Assembly (NCBI GenBank): GCA_012960115.1
Contig: DUBX01000043.1
Span: forward strand, 34,750 to 69,430
Direction: 5' to 3'
Length of the DNA stretch: 34,681 nucleotides
Origin: Porticoccaceae bacterium
GTDB taxonomy: Bacteria; Pseudomonadota; Gammaproteobacteria; Pseudomonadales; Porticoccaceae
A program made the position numbers and the translations under genes. Position 1 is the stretch's first letter, and every line of letters begins with the position of its first letter. The notes under the pieces are model-generated. The model had not been told where the DNA came from. It did not search any database and saw nothing but the letters and a program-made list of their open reading frames with translations. Shown here one piece after another: positions 955 to 17,929 of the stretch.

Positions 955-2718
955 ATGGCACGTATGACACCTAGCGAAGCATTCGTTGAAACACTAGTCG
1001 CCAATGGTGTCACAAAGATTTTTGGCATTATGGGCTCGGCATTTATGGACGCCATGGATATTTTTGCCCCAGCGGGCATCGAACTCATTCCGGTAGTCCA
1101 TGAGCAGGGCGCTGCTCATATGGCCGACGGTTACGCTCGCGCGTCCGGTGATCACGGCGTCGTCATTGGCCAAAATGGGCCAGGAGTTTCAAACTGTGTC
1201 ACGGGTATTGCTGCCGCTTTCTGGGCGCACTCCCCGGTCGTTATGATTACACCGGAAGCCGGCACTATGAGCATTGGCTTGGGCGGATTTCAGGAAGCGC
1301 AACAGCTTCCTATGTTCCAAGAATTCACCAAATACCAGGGACACGTAAACAACCCCAAACGCATCGCGGAGTTTACCGCTCGCTGCTTTGATCGAGCCAT
1401 GTCGGAAATTGGCCCCACACAATTGAACATCCCGCGTGATTTCTTTTACGGTGATATTTGTATAGACATTCCGCAACCACAGCGCTTGGATCGTGGTCCC
1501 GGAGGTGAAAAGAGTCTAGGAGAAGCGGCGTATCTATTATCTACCGCGAAGTTTCCTGTCATGGTTTCTGGCGGCGGTGTGGTCATGGCCGATGCCATTG
1601 ACGAGTGCAAGGCCCTAGCTGAATTACTCGGCGCACCCGTTGTTAATAGCTATCAGCACAATGACTCGTTCCCCGCTAGCCACCCTCTATGGTGTGGCCC
1701 TTTAGGTTATCAAGGGTCAAAAGCAGGCATGAAGCTCATATCCAAAGCTGACGTAGTGTTGGTCTTAGGCTCACGTCTAGGACCTTTTGGCACCCTTCCC
1801 CAGTATGAGCTTGAGTATTGGCCAGAAAATGCAAAAATCATTCAGATTGATGCAGATCACAAAATGCTGGGGCTGGTGAAAAAAATATCTGTCGGTATCT
1901 GTGGTGACGCAAAAGCCACTGCGGTTGCCTTGACTGAGCGCCTGTCTAAGTTAAACCTTGACTGCCATGAAAATCGGGACGCACGTATCGCTGAAATCAC
2001 GGCTCAAAAACAGGTGTGGGAAACAGAATTAGACGAGTGGACCCATGAAAAAGACCCCTACAGCTTAGATATGATTGTAGAGGCCGCTAGCGAAGACGGC
2101 GAATGGTTACACCCAAGACAAGTCCTGCGTGAGCTAGAAAATGCTATGCCAGAAAACGTTATGGTTTCTACGGATATCGGTAACATTAACTCTGTGGCTC
2201 ACAGTTACCTGCGCTTTGAAAAGCCTCGCAGTTTTTTTGCCCCTATGAGTTTTGGTAACTGTGGCTATGCCCTACCCACGATCATAGGTGCAAAGGCGGC
2301 AGCTCCACACCGACCCGCCATTGCCTATGCTGGTGACGGCGCCTGGGGTATGAGCATGTCTGAATTAATGACCTCTGTGCGTCACGACATTCCTGTTACA
2401 GCCGTGGTATTTCATAATCGTGACTGGGGTGCAGAAAAGAAAAACCAAGTTGAGTTCTATGATCGCCGCTTTGTCGCAGCCGAACTGGTTAGCGAAAGCT
2501 GGGCTGGTATTGCACAAGCGATGGGAGCAGAAGGCATTATCGTCGACAAATTGGAAAATGTTGGACCGGCTCTCAAGAAAGCCATAGACCTACAAATGAA
2601 TGAAGGTAAAAGCACCGTTATTGAGATTATGTGTACCCGAGAACTGGGCGATCCCTTCCGGCGTGATGCGTTATCCAAGCCAGTACGTTACCTTGAGAAA
2701 TACAAGGACTACGTTTAG
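955..2718 (+). CDS. xsc: sulfoacetaldehyde acetyltransferase (Xsc)
   Basis: Xsc is a thiamine-diphosphate enzyme that cleaves sulfoacetaldehyde with phosphate to acetyl phosphate and sulfite, the step where taurine, isethionate and related sulfonate pathways converge. The 587-residue length is normal. The N-terminal pyrimidine-binding domain has the catalytic Glu50 in VVHEQGAAHMADGYA. A central domain follows at about 185-340, and the C-terminal domain carries the ThDP/Mg motif starting G460-D461-G462 (AGDGAWGMSMSE), then FHNRDWGAEKKNQ. The ATG at 955 follows an AGGA Shine-Dalgarno at about 943-946. pta lies 98 bp downstream and uses the acetyl phosphate. The sulfite exporter and the taurine transaminase or dehydrogenase that often accompany xsc are not in the window. 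Confidence 0.96.
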   Translation: MARMTPSEAFVETLVANGVTKIFGIMGSAFMDAMDIFAPAGIELIPVVHEQGAAHMADGYARASGDHGVVIGQNGPGVSNCVTGIAAAFWAHSPVVMITPEAGTMSIGLGGFQEAQQLPMFQEFTKYQGHVNNPKRIAEFTARCFDRAMSEIGPTQLNIPRDFFYGDICIDIPQPQRLDRGPGGEKSLGEAAYLLSTAKFPVMVSGGGVVMADAIDECKALAELLGAPVVNSYQHNDSFPASHPLWCGPLGYQGSKAGMKLISKADVVLVLGSRLGPFGTLPQYELEYWPENAKIIQIDADHKMLGLVKKISVGICGDAKATAVALTERLSKLNLDCHENRDARIAEITAQKQVWETELDEWTHEKDPYSLDMIVEAASEDGEWLHPRQVLRELENAMPENVMVSTDIGNINSVAHSYLRFEKPRSFFAPMSFGNCGYALPTIIGAKAAAPHRPAIAYAGDGAWGMSMSELMTSVRHDIPVTAVVFHNRDWGAEKKNQVEFYDRRFVAAELVSESWAGIAQAMGAEGIIVDKLENVGPALKKAIDLQMNEGKSTVIEIMCTRELGDPFRRDALSKPVRYLEKYKDYV

Positions 2719-2719
2719 C

Positions 2720-2771
2720 GTCAATGAGGAGTACCCTTATCTTACTCAGAGTGTACTTGGGGTACATTGAC
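2720..2771 (+). repeat. imperfect inverted repeat between xsc and pta
   Basis: GTCAAT (2720-2725) pairs with ATTGAC (2766-2771) and GTACCC (2731-2736) pairs with GGGTAC (2760-2765), leaving a 5-base bulge (2726-2730) on the left arm and a 23-base loop. There is no U-run after it, so it looks more like an mRNA processing or stability structure, or a weak attenuator between the two cistrons, than a full terminator. Confidence 0.5.
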
Positions 2772-2816
2772 CTCCTGTTTGGGAAAAATCTCTATAAATA
2801 ATAAGCTAAGCTCATT

Positions 2817-3821
2817 ATGTCTATATTAAATACAATTATTGAAAGAGCGAAAACGACTGCAGCTAAACTTGTTTTCGCCGAAGGCCAGGATCCTCGTGTC
2901 ATCCAAGCGGCTCATAAGATTGTTAATGATGGAATTGCGCAAATCACAGTGCTTGGGACTGAGTCAGAAATCACCCAAGCATGTCTCTTAGCGGGCGTAG
3001 ATGCATGCAATTTTGATGTGATTGATCCTTTGTCATCTCCCCTTATTGCTGATTTTGCCCGCAATTTCTGTGAGGTACGTAAAGCGAAAGGCATCACCAT
3101 AGATGCTGCCACTGACATCATGAAAAACAGGCTGTATTTCGCTAGTATGATGTGTCATCAAGGATTAGTTGATGGTGTCGTCGCAGGAAGTGTTGCCTCA
3201 ACCAGTGATGTGCTTCGCGCCTCGTTACAGGTAATTGGTACTTCAAAAGGTATTAAAACGGCGAGTAGTAGCATGCTTTTAGACCTTGCAAGCCCTTCCC
3301 CTGGTGGCTACTCATCACTCCTATTTGCCGACTGTGCCGTTAATCCCAACCCAGATGCCGAGCAATTGGTTGATATAGCTATCGCATCGGCTAACACCTA
3401 TGCCACATTGACCGGCGAAAAACCCAAGGTTGGTTTCTTATCTTTTGCAACGCACGGCAGTGCTCAGCACGAATCACTAGATAAAATTAGACTTGCAGCG
3501 GCCCTGACACTATTAAAAGTAAAGGCCGAAGGGCTAGATATCATTGTCGATGGGGAGATACAGGCAGATGCTGCCTTAGTCCCTAGCATCTCTGCAAGAA
3601 AATGTCCTGATAGTGCATTAAAAGGAGAGACGAACGTTTTAATTTTTCCCGATCTTAACTCGGGCAATATTTCCTACAAACTGGTGCAAAGGCTAGCTGA
3701 CATATCCGTATATGGCCCACTTCTTCAGGGTTTAGGAAAGCCGATTAATGACTTATCTCGCGGCTGTAGCACAGATGATATATACGGAGTTGCCGCCATC
3801 ACTGTCTGCCAGGTGATCTAG
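2817..3821 (+). CDS. pta: phosphate acetyltransferase
   Basis: Interconverts acetyl phosphate and acetyl-CoA. Behind xsc it would channel acetyl phosphate from sulfonate breakdown into central metabolism. At 334 residues it is the short, single-domain PTA_PTB form, not the ~700-residue enterobacterial Pta with an N-terminal DRTGG region. Family signatures seen: KLVFAEGQDPRV near the N-terminus, VDGVVAGSVASTSDVLRAS in the middle, and the C-terminal NVLIFPDLNSGNISYKLVQRL segment. The start at ATG 2817 has only a weak Shine-Dalgarno, which would fit coupling to the upstream cistron. A strong terminator follows about 70 bp after the stop. Confidence 0.93.
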   Translation: MSILNTIIERAKTTAAKLVFAEGQDPRVIQAAHKIVNDGIAQITVLGTESEITQACLLAGVDACNFDVIDPLSSPLIADFARNFCEVRKAKGITIDAATDIMKNRLYFASMMCHQGLVDGVVAGSVASTSDVLRASLQVIGTSKGIKTASSSMLLDLASPSPGGYSSLLFADCAVNPNPDAEQLVDIAIASANTYATLTGEKPKVGFLSFATHGSAQHESLDKIRLAAALTLLKVKAEGLDIIVDGEIQADAALVPSISARKCPDSALKGETNVLIFPDLNSGNISYKLVQRLADISVYGPLLQGLGKPINDLSRGCSTDDIYGVAAITVCQVI

Positions 3822-4661: not shown

Positions 4662-5208
4662 AAGAAGTTAAGGACTTCTTATATGTAACAATTATTCATG
4701 AATGAAAAGAAAAAATTAATTGTCATCGCGGTTTTACCTAACATACGGGTCCTCTTTTTAGTGAAATATTACTTCTTTCATTTGGGGTTTTTACTCATCA
4801 AATGCTAGTTGATCCAAAGATAATTGATGGCGAGTCGCTAAATCACAGGCACTACAAAGTATTAAAAACCTAGGCGAACGAAAGGTCATACCGCTGAACT
4901 AAAACAGCTTTTTGGCGTTAAATACAAGCAATTGAAAGGCAAAAAAAACCCTGATTTCTCAGGGCTTTTGCAAAAGCAAATAAATGTATATATCTTCAGG
5001 GGGAGAACATGTACATTACTTAAGACAACTGTACGCACAAAAGTTCAATTTAATTTGCAAAAGAGTATAAATACGTTGAATTTTGTTCCATTCCTATTAT
5101 TTCATACCCTATATAACCCCTAGTTTTTAAACGCCTTAGCATCTATAGTTGAGTGCGTTCGATACTTTGAAATTGCAATAGATCACAAGATAATAAAAGG
5201 TCAAAAGC
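4662..5208. other. 547-bp intergenic region with possible gene relic
   Basis: AT-rich and without a credible intact gene. The left end must hold the promoter of the minus-strand secreted-protein gene and the right end that of the oxidoreductase gene at 5209. Around 4802-4985 short protein-like stretches appear in shifting frames (for example LQSIKNLGERKVIPLN ending in a stop, then QLFGVKYKQLKGKKNPDF in another frame), which may be debris of a decayed gene. I cannot assign its family. A terminator-like hairpin lies at 4941-4969. Confidence 0.4.
4941..4969. terminator. terminator-like hairpin
   Basis: CCCTGA (4949-4954) and TCAGGG (4959-4964) form a perfect 6-bp stem with a TTTC loop, preceded by A8 and followed by CTTTT. 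It could act on either strand. No intact gene ends here, so it may be left from a lost transcription unit. Confidence 0.55.
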
Positions 5209-6615
5209 ATGGCAACCATTAGCGAAGCCGCTCGAGAAACTCCCATTATTCACCATACCGACGTATTGGTTGTCGGCAGTGGTCCGGGAGGGCTGGCCGC
5301 CGCTATAGCTTCTGCCAGAGCAGGTGCCGAGACCACCCTTCTTGAACGCTATGGTTGCTTTGGCGGGAACCTCACTCAAGTGGGCGTCGAAGGCTTTGCA
5401 TGGTATCGACATGACAACACTGTCGACAGCGAGGGTATCGGCGTGGAATTTGAACAACGTGCAAAATCTATTGGCGCTGCAACGCCTGAACCTCAATCAA
5501 ACAGTCACGCCATAGATGGCGAAGCCTTTAAATATGTCGCCGACGTCTTGGTCGAAGAATCTGGGATTACACCAATGCTGCATAGAACAATGGTCGCACC
5601 TATTGTCGAAGGCGGCGTAATTAAAGGCGTTATTGTCGAGAGTAAAGCTGGGAGAGAGGCGATATTAGCTCAGCGTGTTATCGATGCTACAGGTGATGCC
5701 GATATTGCTCATAGGTCAGGCGCAATAGTAAACAAAACGCCGGTCGAAGAAATGATGGCGGCGTCTGTTATGTTTTCAATGAATGGCGTCGATAAAATGC
5801 GTTTTATAGAGGACGTTAAAGCAGACCCACATACCTACAGTGACTGGTGTGGCCCAGACTGGGCCATGGAAACTTCAGGTAAAGAAGACGCACTATTTTC
5901 GCCATACCTCAAGAAACCGTTTGAAAAGGCCATTAAATCAGGACTAATACCAGAGAATCTAAACACGATTACTGGAACCTGGGGCGCTATTACCGATCAA
6001 GGTGACCTGACTTATTTGAATTTGATTCATTTGGCTGGCCTTGATGCCACTAACCCAGACCACCTTACAAAAGGTGAGATGGAGGGCCGACGGCAGGCTA
6101 TGTTGGCTATAAAAGCCCTCAAACAATTTAACCCAGGGTGCGAGAATGCCAAATTGAGAAATTTCGGTATGACTCTTGGTGTTCGAGACACACGGAAAAG
6201 TTGTAAAGAAGATATTGAAGTTTTAAAACCAATGTTCAATAAAATTGATGCTGTTTATAATATGACCGCCCAGGATGTTCGTGAGCAAGGGAAGTTTGAC
6301 GATAGCATTGGTATCTTCCCAGAATTTATCGATGGCTATGGCATCCTCATTTTACCCACGACGGGCCGTTACTTTCAGCTGCCCTACCGTGCAATGCTGC
6401 CGAAAGGTGTTCGTCATCTTTTAGTGACGGGACGCAGCACCGGTGGCGATCGTGATTCCCATGCTGCAGTGCGTAATATGATGTGTTGCGCCGTCAATGG
6501 TCAGGGTGCTGGGGTTGCGGCGGCTATTTCTGTACAGACAGGTGTTGATGTCGCAGATGTTGACATCAAGTTAGTACAGAAAAAATTACTCGAGCAAGGC
6601 GCGCGAATTCATTAA
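5209..6615 (+). CDS. FAD-dependent oxidoreductase (FAD_oxidored family)
   Basis: A 468-residue flavoprotein with no signal peptide. The N-terminal Rossmann fold is clear: VLVVGSGPGG at residues 19-28, with Glu46 at the end of strand 2 (LLERYGCFGGN) to bind the FAD ribose. RVIDATGDADIAHRSG gives the second FAD contact, and the C-terminal LVTGRSTGGDRDSHAAVRNM segment is the usual FAD-closing motif. These match the PF12831-type oxidoreductases, whose substrates are mostly unknown; nothing here identifies this one. The ATG at 5209 has AAGGT about 10 bp upstream (5198-5202). It is a single-gene unit with no enzyme partner next to it, so pathway assignment is not possible. Confidence 0.85.
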   Translation: MATISEAARETPIIHHTDVLVVGSGPGGLAAAIASARAGAETTLLERYGCFGGNLTQVGVEGFAWYRHDNTVDSEGIGVEFEQRAKSIGAATPEPQSNSHAIDGEAFKYVADVLVEESGITPMLHRTMVAPIVEGGVIKGVIVESKAGREAILAQRVIDATGDADIAHRSGAIVNKTPVEEMMAASVMFSMNGVDKMRFIEDVKADPHTYSDWCGPDWAMETSGKEDALFSPYLKKPFEKAIKSGLIPENLNTITGTWGAITDQGDLTYLNLIHLAGLDATNPDHLTKGEMEGRRQAMLAIKALKQFNPGCENAKLRNFGMTLGVRDTRKSCKEDIEVLKPMFNKIDAVYNMTAQDVREQGKFDDSIGIFPEFIDGYGILILPTTGRYFQLPYRAMLPKGVRHLLVTGRSTGGDRDSHAAVRNMMCCAVNGQGAGVAAAISVQTGVDVADVDIKLVQKKLLEQGARIH

Positions 6616-15023: not shown

Positions 15024-16136
15024 TTATCGACTGTTGCCTATCAGTTGCGTTACAACGTCAATCTGAGCCTCAGAGTTGTAAATGTGAGGTGAAAGTCGAA
15101 TACCTTTAGATCGGCTGTCAAAATGAACACCTTGACTGCGCAATTTTTCAGTAATCTGATCATGTTTTTCACCAAAGTGGATAATCAACGTTCCGCTGCG
15201 GCAGTTGGACTCAGTAGGCGACATCAATTCACCCGTCCCTAAGCTAGCAATAATTTTGTCACACAGCTCTAAATTGTGTTGCCGGATCTTATCTACCCCA
15301 AGGTTGCCAACAAACTCTAAACTGGCAGACGCTATACAAAACGGATATACCGAGGGCGTTCCACCCAAAAATCGAAGAGCATCTTTGGCATAGCGAAAAT
15401 TGTGAATGTCGAACTCAAATGGGTCTTCATGGGAGAACCAGCCAACATTTTGTGGCTGACAGAGCTCAAGTATGTCTGGGTTAACCCAGAGAAAACCAGC
15501 ACCTGGACCACCGCTAAGCCATTTAACGCAGGACCCGACAATAAAGTCGGCAGACCATTGCTGAATATCGATGGGAATAATTCCGATAGCCTGAGCGATA
15601 TCGACTAAGGACCGAATTGATCGCTCTGCAGCCATTGCAGTAACGGCCCCGATTGGCAACTGAACACCATTGTTAGATTGCACTTGAGTGACCAAAACTA
15701 AAGCAACATCATCGCTTAAATACTCATCCCACACGGTTAAATCGTTTAGGTTGAGGCCTGCAGGAATATAACGCATCTGATAACCCAGGCTCTGCGATTG
15801 CTGCAGCGCGTAAGCTACCGAAGGAAAGTCCTCCTCACTCATTAGAATGACATTTTTGTGCGTTGAAGGCGTCAGCGAAAATATAATGTTATTCACCGCG
15901 CTGGATATCGTTGTTTGCGGACAAAAGTGGCTTGCATCGCTATTTAACAGCGTGCCAAGTTGCCCCCTAAATCGCTCAATCTCGGCTAACCAATGGTTCC
16001 AGATGCTTTCATTACCTCTAACCCAAGGTTGCCAGAAACCCTCGTCTGCAACTGATTTTGAATTCTTCAGCGGCAGCCCGACTGAATGACTGAGCAAATA
16101 GATGCCTTGCTGATCAACGAAATTATCTTCCATCAT
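15024..16136 (-). CDS. kynU: kynureninase-like PLP-dependent enzyme
   Basis: Kynureninase splits kynurenine (or its 3-hydroxy form) into anthranilate and alanine using PLP. This 370-residue protein has the family's hallmarks: SHSVGLP near the N-terminus, the PLP-nitrogen aspartate Asp179 in LVDIAQAIGIIPID, Schiff-base Lys205 in GSCVKWLSGGPGAGFLWV, GWFSHEDPFEF, FLGGTPSVYP and the C-terminal RLSPHIYNS. It is shorter than the ~415-residue Pseudomonas enzyme, and the N-terminal substrate motif differs, so the substrate may not be kynurenine itself. Its ATG overlaps the stop of the upstream DUF1864 gene by 4 bp (ATGA), so the two are translationally coupled and probably act in sequence. Confidence 0.85.
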   Translation of the reverse strand: MMEDNFVDQQGIYLLSHSVGLPLKNSKSVADEGFWQPWVRGNESIWNHWLAEIERFRGQLGTLLNSDASHFCPQTTISSAVNNIIFSLTPSTHKNVILMSEEDFPSVAYALQQSQSLGYQMRYIPAGLNLNDLTVWDEYLSDDVALVLVTQVQSNNGVQLPIGAVTAMAAERSIRSLVDIAQAIGIIPIDIQQWSADFIVGSCVKWLSGGPGAGFLWVNPDILELCQPQNVGWFSHEDPFEFDIHNFRYAKDALRFLGGTPSVYPFCIASASLEFVGNLGVDKIRQHNLELCDKIIASLGTGELMSPTESNCRSGTLIIHFGEKHDQITEKLRSQGVHFDSRSKGIRLSPHIYNSEAQIDVVTQLIGNSR

Positions 16137-17302
16137 GCTATACAGTCCTTAAGGCTCTGAATATCTCTATAACGGGTATCAAACCCCTCAGTGGCTGGTG
16201 CAGCGCAACGCATATCGCAGAGCTTTCTAAGGCCTTTCAAAAGCACGGGCAAAGGTGGGCCGCTAGCAGTAAGGTCAGCCTGGTCCGTATGTGCGCCCGC
16301 ATCTGCAGGGCGTTCTATAAATTTGCGCACTAACCGCTCGTGATGCTGAATCGCCACTCTGCCATGAGCCTCGCACACGTCTAAAAACATGCTTAAATTG
16401 GTCTGGAACCAAGGGTCATTTTTATGCTCAGACTGACATTCTAGAAAGCTATCGAGCAGACTTTTACGTCGCATACAGTCACGAAGCACGAGTTGATCTT
16501 CTGGGCGCATGAACAAGAATTTATCCACCAACAGCTGGGAGTAATAGGGATCATCTGCTTTACAGACACCCAGAAGTAAATCAATAACATTAATGCCTGC
16601 AAAATCCCCAGCATTCGCACCCCTATACTCGTGCAAACCAACACGGTGTGGTCGGTAGTAAGGCCTGACACAATAGAAAAACCGATTGATATCTAGTTGA
16701 TCAAATAAACTCGCATTGGAGGCATAAACCTCGTCAAGTGCTACCTTGGCTGTGGACAATAATTCGTACGTTATCGGATGTGAGACACCCAGCGGCAGAC
16801 AACTTCTCAGAGCCTCTGAAGCACGAATAAAAGAAAACACGCCGCGTGTATTGAAGTCGATAAATATCTTTTCATCTGCCAGCGAAGTGAACGTTTTGTA
16901 TTCCCCGTTGACGGCACGATTGTGCGTTTCCAAATGACAAGAGGCAAACCGTGGAATTACGCCGAGTGATGCACCCAGCTGCATGGCAAGGGCGGAGGCT
17001 TCTTGCAACGGTGATTTGGTCTCTCTTGATGGCTCAGTAATATCATGGCGGCGACAGGCTGCCATGTAAAAGCCAACATTACCCAACAATTCAAATCCGC
17101 TATCAAAACCCTCATCAGTATTACCCTCACCGAGAAGATCTGTAATGAGCGCTCTACCCTCGTCAACTAATTGTGTTTTGATACTTTTACCCAAGGGCTC
17201 AGTTGAATCGCGATTCTCAAAATACAGCTCTTCCAACCCTGTGTTCATCGCTTTGAAATCACTGCGAATCCATCGATCCAGCGCCTGCGCTTTCTGCGTC
17301 AT
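16133..17302 (-). CDS. PrnB-like/DUF1864 protein, IDO/TDO heme dioxygenase superfamily
   Basis: A 389-residue protein matching what I recall of the PF08933 (PrnB-like, DUF1864) family. PrnB rearranges 7-chlorotryptophan during pyrrolnitrin synthesis and shares the heme-binding fold of indoleamine and tryptophan 2,3-dioxygenases. A Shewanella oneidensis homologue (SO4414; from memory PDB 1ZEE) sits next to a kynureninase gene in the same way. Visible features: mostly helical sequence, a conserved-looking block RPYYRPHRVG...GANAGDFAGINVIDLLLGVC (about 213-247), LLVDKFLFMRPEDQ (257-270), and His320-His321 in VAIQHHERLVRKF, one of which is the likely proximal heme ligand. The start at 17302 has an AAGGG Shine-Dalgarno. 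Coupling to kynU suggests an oxygenase acting on tryptophan or a related indole. Activity not demonstrated. Confidence 0.7.
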   Translation of the reverse strand: MTQKAQALDRWIRSDFKAMNTGLEELYFENRDSTEPLGKSIKTQLVDEGRALITDLLGEGNTDEGFDSGFELLGNVGFYMAACRRHDITEPSRETKSPLQEASALAMQLGASLGVIPRFASCHLETHNRAVNGEYKTFTSLADEKIFIDFNTRGVFSFIRASEALRSCLPLGVSHPITYELLSTAKVALDEVYASNASLFDQLDINRFFYCVRPYYRPHRVGLHEYRGANAGDFAGINVIDLLLGVCKADDPYYSQLLVDKFLFMRPEDQLVLRDCMRRKSLLDSFLECQSEHKNDPWFQTNLSMFLDVCEAHGRVAIQHHERLVRKFIERPADAGAHTDQADLTASGPPLPVLLKGLRKLCDMRCAAPATEGFDTRYRDIQSLKDCIA

Positions 17303-17386
17303 CTTAATACCCTTTTGGCAATTCTATTAAAGGGAAATATTAACAAAATTACAGTGGCATTATCGGGCAAAGAAAAGTCATATTTT

Positions 17387-17407
17387 TTAATATATGTGAT
17401 ATATTAA
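17387..17407. promoter_or_regulatory. palindromic operator candidate in divergent promoter region
   Basis: A perfect palindrome: TTAATATAT (17387-17395), GTG spacer, ATATATTAA (17399-17407). It lies between the divergent Lrp/AsnC-family gene and the DUF1864-kynU operon, just upstream of a TATAAT (17416-17421) facing the regulator, so it overlaps where a -35 box would be. Lrp-family proteins bind AT-rich palindromes of about this size. Inferred site for control of both units. Confidence 0.6.
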
Positions 17408-17443
17408 TCGTTAAATATAATTAATTAGCAGATTATACTAATA

Positions 17444-17929
17444 ATGGATAACAAATTAGATCATATTGATATCAGTATATTATCCGCGTTACAGGATAAT
17501 TCGCGTATCAGCAATGCAGAGCTATCCGCCAAGGTGAACTTATCTCAGACGCCCTGTTTGAGGCGACTTCGCAGGCTCGAACAAAGCGGTCTGATTGAAC
17601 GCTATAGCGTCCAGTTAAATCATCAGATGATAGGCGCCAACGTTTCCGCCTTTGTATTTGTGAAAGTGAACAAAAACACATCCGGCAATGCATCTGCCTT
17701 TGAATCAGCAGTAGCTAACTTACCTGAGGTTACCGAATGCTGTGTGCTTGCAGGGGCTCATGACTACATGCTTCGCGTCAGTACAGCGACATTGCAATCC
17801 TTTGAGATATTTCTCAAAGAAAAGCTAGCCAATGTACCCATGGCAGAAGATATTGAATCAACCATAATACTTAATCAGCTGATTAAGCGAGACGCGCCCC
17901 TACCCACCCCACAGGTAAAGGGTGGATAA
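17444..17929 (+). CDS. Lrp/AsnC-family transcriptional regulator
   Basis: A 161-residue regulator. The N-terminal helix-turn-helix (about 6-60) reads LDHIDISILSALQDNSRISNAELS then VNLSQTPCLRRLRRLEQSGLI, typical of Lrp/AsnC. The RAM ligand-binding domain follows (about 68-150), with the TECCVLAGAHDYMLRV core in which amino-acid effectors bind. Divergent from the DUF1864-kynU operon with 141 bp between starts, it is probably its regulator, as KynR (also Lrp-type) is for kynurenine genes in Pseudomonas aeruginosa; tryptophan or kynurenine would be the natural effector. That assignment is by context. No strong Shine-Dalgarno precedes the ATG. Confidence 0.93.
   Translation: MDNKLDHIDISILSALQDNSRISNAELSAKVNLSQTPCLRRLRRLEQSGLIERYSVQLNHQMIGANVSAFVFVKVNKNTSGNASAFESAVANLPEVTECCVLAGAHDYMLRVSTATLQSFEIFLKEKLANVPMAEDIESTIILNQLIKRDAPLPTPQVKGG

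Follow-up and report, generated by a model that had tools for sequence, protein, structure and literature searches.

A conserved pairing of an SO4414-type heme enzyme with a kynureninase-like protein, a candidate module for tryptophan ring opening and C-C cleavage

A 34,681-nucleotide stretch of DNA from a Porticoccaceae bacterium (contig DUBX01000043.1, positions 34,750 to 69,430), hereafter "the window," contains two overlapping genes that code for a putative heme-dependent oxygenase of the Pfam family PF08933 and for a kynureninase-like pyridoxal phosphate (PLP) enzyme, termed KL. The pair is proposed to form a compact module, often linked to an Lrp-type regulator, in which L-tryptophan (or a closely related indole amino acid) would be converted to N-formylkynurenine and then cleaved at a C-C bond by KL, perhaps without a formamidase. 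The chances that this reading is right or wrong are judged to be about evenly balanced. It draws on direct observations of gene order, family membership, a conserved pairing, the exchange of the oxygenase next to KL and residue differences in KL, and on searches of PF08933 genomes in which tryptophan 2,3-dioxygenase (TDO) was not found.

Both genes are located on the minus strand, the oxygenase gene at 16133-17302 (389 aa; the proposed ring-opening enzyme for tryptophan or an indole amino acid) and the KL gene at 15024-16136 (370 aa). A gene for an Lrp/AsnC-family regulator (17444-17929, plus strand, 161 aa) lies divergent from the pair. The coordinates of these open reading frames (ORFs) are exact and agree with an earlier note on this DNA, which had also reported the divergent Lrp regulator and the 4-bp overlap of the two enzyme genes. 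In this overlap (16133-16136, minus strand), the stop codon of the oxygenase gene and the start codon of KL can be seen to share the letters ATGA, an arrangement from which translational coupling of the two genes is expected. The same spacing of -4 is present in 19 of the 37 related loci in which KL lies directly downstream on the same strand (see below). No formamidase gene was seen in the operon, judging from the window's ORFs and from the neighbors of related loci. The window genome is a 2.43-Mb draft, 94% complete, and its oxygenase is 97% identical to a protein from a record titled SAR92 clade bacterium, which makes a marine SAR92/Porticoccaceae host probable.

The oxygenase matches PF08933 with 572 bits over residues 2-387 of 389 (Pfam gathering cut-off 27) and is therefore a member of this family. 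Its closest solved relatives are the structures of SO4414 of Shewanella oneidensis (PDB 1zee and 2nwb, E about 1e-147), followed by those of PrnB, the monodechloroaminopyrrolnitrin synthase (E 3.5e-5 and 6.8e-5). Profile scores amount to 635 bits for SO4414, a full-length match, 26-30 bits for the PrnB chains and 14 bits for indoleamine 2,3-dioxygenase 1 (IDO1). A Foldseek search with an AlphaFold model (mean predicted local distance difference test score, pLDDT, 79.7, with two weak stretches) returned the same order, with SO4414 first (56% identity), PrnB next and IDO1 third (E 4e-5, about 15% identity), all at E < 1e-3. No match to the IDO family PF01231 was obtained in a Pfam scan at E 0.1. 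The residues His320-His321 are invariant among 24 oxygenase sequences, and a weak profile alignment (E 0.19) places His321 on His346 of human IDO1. Judged by eye, R213 and F208/F209 would correspond to R231 and F226/F227 of IDO1. Given the family match, the profile scores, the fold ranking and the histidine pair, the enzyme belongs, by sequence and predicted fold, to the SO4414 type within the superfamily of heme-dependent aromatic oxygenases and is not PrnB proper. The structure 2nwb is a ferric-heme complex according to its title, and by homology to 2nwb the window enzyme is predicted to bind heme.

The earlier note had placed the gene in the PrnB-like/DUF1864 branch and had named SO4413/SO4414 of Shewanella as the same pair. 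The family assignment and the link to SO4414 (by PDB titles) were borne out, whereas true PrnB proved remote. Its title term "heme-oxygenase-like" was loose, as the superfamily comprises heme-dependent aromatic oxygenases (IDO, TDO and PrnB) and not heme oxygenase. With PrnB, the window enzyme has the Pfam family, the fold and an Arg-Pro-[YF]-Tyr region in common; unlike PrnB, it is coupled to KL and often to an Lrp gene. The interpretation of the pair as a piece of pyrrolnitrin synthesis was rejected in view of this remote kinship. Pyrrolnitrin genes such as a tryptophan halogenase were found neither in the 16 of 30 listed window ORFs that were scanned nor among 20 neighbor representatives, the wider genome not having been searched.

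A scan of genome contigs revealed 44 related loci. In 40 of them KL and the PF08933 gene are neighbors, with KL directly downstream on the same strand in 37, divergent in two (L032 and L034) and interrupted in one (L010), and the arrangement is therefore not due to chance. In the remaining four loci, the contig ends within the oxygenase gene (L024) or no KL is adjacent (L027, L040 and L046). The reading frame of the oxygenase or of KL is interrupted or truncated in several of the 44 (e.g., L010, L028 and L048). As one marine clade is over-represented among these loci, less biased samples count for more. In a class sample of 369 genomes, PF08933 was present in four, three of them from one genus, and KL was adjacent in all four. 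In a phylum sample of 398 genomes, in which at most four candidates per genome were scored, six genomes gave KL-clade scores (at least 398 bits; next best 199). A PF08933-type gene exists in all six, adjacent to KL in four and elsewhere in two. The latter two, G758 and G650, were considered as counter-examples and rejected, since both hold PF08933 at another site. The co-occurrence with a kynureninase-like gene that the earlier note had expected is thus strongly conserved, and the pair is distributed over several bacterial families (f1, f142, f146, f196 and f255). In G758, a 257-aa gene (L167:7249-8022) without a Pfam match at E 1e-4 is located upstream of the PF08933-type gene with a 4-bp overlap.

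A plasmid search with the window oxygenase returned one record, that of Novosphingobium sp. KACC 22771 (L107:6084-9158). Its PF08933-type gene, with 52% identity to that of the window, lies together with an Lrp gene on the same strand and a gene for an amidohydrolase. Within 8 kb there are also genes for a CDGSH/cupin protein, a TonB receptor and a class-V PLP enzyme distinct from both KL and ordinary kynureninases (132 bits to KL, 5.6 kb from the oxygenase gene).

In another set of loci, the oxygenase is swapped while the KL partner stays. A plasmid search with KL led to a record of Novosphingobium sp. RL4 (L108), where a divergent TDO precedes KL, and the same arrangement was found in G052 (L110) and G320 (L111; KL broken). 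A follow-up search from the RL4 protein gave no other protein above 33% identity among the matches listed. The divergent TDOs reach 90-107 bits against PF03301, share 23-28% identity with three ordinary TDOs and about 57% among themselves, and retain the positions of His55, Arg117 and His240 of Xanthomonas campestris TDO. By score, their nearest solved relative is an ordinary TDO (1e-21, vs 1e-8 for MarE). Within the genus of G320, divergent TDOs were also located at L112:6214-6951 and L113:5958-6698, the third genome being that with the broken KL (L111), and a SIMPL-domain gene lies upstream of the divergent TDO in L111 and L112.

The KL protein matches Aminotran_5 with 99.6 bits. Against the kynureninase equivalog TIGR01814 it scores 93 bits, below the curated cut-off of 246.4, and the wording "kynureninase-like," used in the earlier note, is therefore apt. 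In a quick tree of 50 rows, with the Shimodaira-Hasegawa-like approximate likelihood ratio test (SH-aLRT) as its sole support measure, all 20 KL rows fall into one clade (SH-aLRT 97) separate from 17 ordinary kynureninases (SH-aLRT 99), the remainder being eight other class-V rows and five desulfurases. A structure model of KL (pLDDT 88.5) superimposes on the kynureninases of Pseudomonas fluorescens (1qz9, TM score 0.89) and human (3e9k, 0.87), which were also its best Foldseek matches, with only slightly weaker matches to cysteine desulfurases and other class-V lyases. Active-site residues were compared between 51 KL sequences and 36 ordinary kynureninases, 35 of them from loci exceeding the TIGR01814 cut-off plus L168, which was not scored against it, in the numbering of the P. 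fluorescens enzyme as taken from the 1qz9 alignment. Asp132, His204 and Tyr226 are all present in each of the 36 ordinary kynureninases, and none occurs in any KL. Instead, the Asp132 column holds I, M, V, T, A or L in 50 sequences and a gap in one, the His204 column Q in all 51 and the Tyr226 column V, I or L in all 51, with V107, Q182 and V204 in the window protein. Tyr226 and Asp132 of kynureninase serve catalysis. Other elements are retained. The window KL has the PLP lysine K205, the substrate arginine R347, D179, S18 and W233; equivalents of Lys227, Asp201 and Trp256 are found in 51/51 KL, that of Ser36 in 50/51 (one gap) and that of Arg375 in 48/51 (two gaps and one X elsewhere). KL also keeps the G-W-x-x-H segment of kynureninase and has a D-x-A-Q form. 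The assignment of KL as an ordinary kynureninase was rejected on account of its own clade and the three replaced residues.

Further class-V PLP genes were also found. In the genomes of L046 and L040, genes for another enzyme type, in which the PLP lysine is preceded by valine or leucine, exist at L116:3-914 and L117:6911-8074, respectively, and a distant KL relative adjoins a tryptophan synthase alpha-chain gene at L153:4539-5681.

Analysis of the regulator gene revealed Lrp/AsnC domains at 62-69 bits (the Pfam families HTH_24, HTH_AsnC-type and AsnC_trans_reg). Both the AsnC-type helix-turn-helix (PF13404, 61.7 bits) and the ligand-binding domain (PF01037, 64 bits) exceed their cut-offs. Of the 44 loci, 22 have a divergent Lrp gene next to the oxygenase gene, as do L104, L147 and L149, and in L108 such a gene is found upstream of the divergent TDO and its KL partner. 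The Lrp/AsnC protein probably regulates the pair. The L108 protein scores 69 bits against the window's Lrp, no closer than the 87 bits of the Lrp protein in L138, and the likeness is therefore at family level only. Oxygenase and regulator genes are separated by a shared upstream region of 141 bp (17303-17443), which on the plus strand of the window carries the block ATTATCGGGCAAA. In an alignment of 12 oxygenase-Lrp intergenic regions this block was complete in the five nearest relatives and partial in the rest, and it may represent the regulator's site.

The distribution of other tryptophan-degrading enzymes provides the context for a function. TDO was found in none of 37 PF08933 genomes (those of 33 of the 44 loci plus G000, G143, G256 and G352, with 11 loci excluded), in which IDO (PF01231) was not searched for, nor in five further KL genomes of the phylum sample. 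As the background in the class sample is low (25 of 312 genomes), this bare absence is weak evidence, and the link to kynureninase is stronger. Ordinary kynureninase exists in 11 of the 37 PF08933 genomes, compared with 26 of 339 class genomes. None of these 11 holds a TDO, vs 17 of 23 other class genomes with kynureninase (Fisher p 9e-5, or 8e-4 with near kin among the 11 collapsed to seven), a contrast which assumes that the 339-genome sample begins with the 312 genomes of the smaller one. Four of the 37 genomes (G375, G376, G381 and G385) yielded no TIGR01814 match even though KL is present in their loci, and for this reason the reading "no KL" is uncertain for G386, G395, G400, G103 and G220.

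The kynurenine formamidase of animals and yeast is an alpha/beta hydrolase. At E < 1e-50, an alpha/beta hydrolase was identified in seven of 44 genomes, including the one from which the query came (an eighth, weak match has 4e-11), and in all seven its gene directly adjoins that of an ordinary kynureninase. In the three cases scanned (L096, L101 and L102), Pfam assigns it to BD-FAE, and it is likely to be a formamidase. No TDO was found in these seven genomes, where IDO was again outside the search. G386 (L027) holds PF08933 together with such a hydrolase-kynureninase pair and no KL was seen in it, subject to the uncertainty just mentioned; the PF08933 enzyme is the simplest source of N-formylkynurenine in this genome, among the enzymes searched for there, IDO not being one of them. 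The window genome itself, within its 94%-complete draft, yielded no TDO, no other kynureninase, no PF04199 formamidase and no such hydrolase at E 1e-10.

From this context we infer a substrate, products and an order of steps. The SO4414-type heme enzyme would use O2 to open the indole ring of L-tryptophan, giving N-formylkynurenine and doing the job of TDO where none was found. In the second step, KL would cleave the ring-opened amino acid between C-beta and C-gamma, and it might take N-formylkynurenine directly, releasing N-formylanthranilate and alanine. Such direct use is proposed because of the small residue at the position of Tyr226 and because neither TDO, ordinary kynureninase nor either of two formamidase types was found in the window genome. 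A simulation of one kynureninase has the aniline ring of kynurenine packing on Tyr226, according to the available part of the report (PMC11704957), and valine at this position would leave space near the substrate's aniline ring. Direct use of the formyl compound is the least secure element of the proposal. A more far-reaching version is advanced tentatively and with more doubt than confidence: KL would be a new PLP activity, a C-C hydrolase specific for N-formylkynurenine (or an oxindolylalanine-type lyase), within a two-step, formamidase-free route, and the module would have been built at least twice by joining KL to an SO4414-type oxygenase or to a divergent TDO.

Several observations weigh against the proposed route. 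The 44 loci are clade-biased, three of them have PF08933 without an adjacent KL, and in two genomes of the genus of G320 (L112 and L113) the divergent TDO is present and no KL was seen. The TDO searches left IDO aside, and in six of the 23 other kynureninase genomes neither TDO nor PF08933 was found. KL coexists with ordinary kynureninase in some genomes, and the substrates of the two therefore need not be common. Of 39 genomes searched, 18 hold a PF04199 protein, so that a formamidase elsewhere in the genome is possible for many. KL is without residues found in all aligned ordinary kynureninases, and other chemistry is therefore possible. Moreover, the divergent TDOs have SLKG(R/H) in place of the GTGG(S/T) of TDO, close to the SLGGR loop of MarE, which forms a 2-oxindole, as described in the accessible sections of PMC11904535. 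The MarE-like loop of the swapped oxygenases and the residues missing from KL make a monooxygenase route the chief rival. In that scheme, the heme enzyme adds one oxygen atom to tryptophan, yielding 2-oxindolylalanine, 5-hydroxytryptophan or a 3a-hydroxypyrroloindole, and KL is another PLP lyase, acting for example by beta-elimination to give an oxindole, pyruvate and ammonia. The loss of Asp132, His204 and Tyr226, the D-x-A-Q form and the nearly equal structural match of KL to cysteine desulfurases and class-V lyases would all fit, and other members of the superfamily are known to monooxygenate, including MarE, a heme-dependent tryptophan hydroxylase and, in part, IDO (excerpts of PMC11904535, PMC13036774 and PMC12921851). 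However, the hydrolase-kynureninase pairs in PF08933 genomes without a detected TDO point to N-formylkynurenine, KL retains two kynureninase features, the substrate arginine and the G-W-x-x-H segment, and the divergent TDOs score closer to ordinary TDO than to MarE. The monooxygenase route is regarded as doubtful.

The same context evidence for tryptophan ring opening would also suit an ordinary kynurenine pathway with diverged parts, that is, a plain tryptophan dioxygenase, a formamidase encoded elsewhere (PF04199 being available in the genomes counted above) and KL as a divergent kynureninase. A kynureninase-type gene (not scored against TIGR01814) lies near the Lrp gene of L138 (G726), and KynR of Pseudomonas, an Lrp/AsnC-type protein, regulates the kynurenine pathway (a reference within the consulted part of PMC4938989). 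This explanation is nevertheless unlikely, given that three residues invariant in ordinary kynureninases are absent from KL, that KL forms its own clade and coexists with ordinary kynureninase, and that neither formamidase type sought was found in the window genome. Alternatively, the two-step chemistry might act on another indole or aromatic amino acid, such as 5-hydroxytryptophan or a halogenated tryptophan originating in marine organic matter. Most hosts look marine by their record titles, and a different substrate would account for a separate enzyme set beside ordinary kynureninase in some genomes; yet no gene for its synthesis was found among the 20 scanned representatives of 174 neighbor clusters, and transporters, of unassigned substrate, adjoin the module in few loci only, which leaves this option quite improbable. 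Synthesis of a secondary metabolite or signal in the manner of PrnB, with a halogenated or modified tryptophan undergoing ring rearrangement, appears very improbable: the Pfam family common to both enzymes would suggest it, but PrnB is remote, no biosynthetic neighbors recur among those scanned, and the spread of the pair over several bacterial families resembles that of a small catabolic module. The earlier interpretation, ring opening followed by C-C cleavage, is thus favored by context (the TDO swap, the lack of a detected TDO and the pairs of formamidase-like and kynureninase genes). It survived on the three points named in advance as able to refute it, with a PF08933 match, a closest solved relative that is a heme complex by its title and a conserved pairing being found, and it requires revision in that the partner is not a strict kynureninase and true PrnB is distant.

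The combination of a heme oxygenase, a kynureninase-type enzyme and an Lrp-type regulator is of a kind already known, from kynA-kynB-kynU with KynR (consulted part of PMC4938989), and both enzymes of the window are unusual variants: the oxygenase belongs to another subfamily, KL to another clade, and no formamidase gene was seen in the operon. The appearance of the pair is that of an independently evolved counterpart to the early steps in tryptophan degradation. No publication on the pair was found among the matches listed in a mainly open-licence literature search, which did return papers on PrnB and the superfamily; two structure surveys, in the portions available, name 2nwb/1zee. For SO4414, annotated as a "putative 2,3-dioxygenase" and released as a structure in 2005, the literature searched holds the structure and, two decades later, no function. 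The conserved partner, the frequent regulator, the TDO swap and the missing TDO now make this function concretely and cheaply testable. If the proposed route is correct, many marine gammaproteobacteria would degrade tryptophan by a route missed in present annotation, and KL would show a kynureninase scaffold at work without residues otherwise retained in kynureninases.

The genomic surroundings of the module were found to be variable. A constant third gene was rejected, as none emerged from the 20 scanned representatives of 174 neighbor clusters, and an adjacent formamidase was likewise rejected, none being present among the scanned neighbors. A PhoD phosphatase (11 loci) and a cluster that corresponds to uvrC in the window (18 loci) recur in SAR92/Porticoccaceae-type loci only and therefore look host-specific. 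A transporter of the SBF family adjoins the module in four of the 44 loci and at least two genera (L025:4206-5123 and, in Parahaliea, L031, L035 and L037, the last at 5069-6001), and is a possible uptake partner. An EamA transporter adjoins it in L026, and a short-chain dehydrogenase is encoded nearby in four loci (L015, L029, L037 and L047); together with the SBF transporters, these might be helpers, not constant components. At some distance from the pair, the window contains a gene for a thiamine pyrophosphate-dependent enzyme followed by a phosphate acetyltransferase gene (955-3821, computed as Pfam families alone), a gene order that is presumably xsc-pta of sulfoacetaldehyde breakdown.

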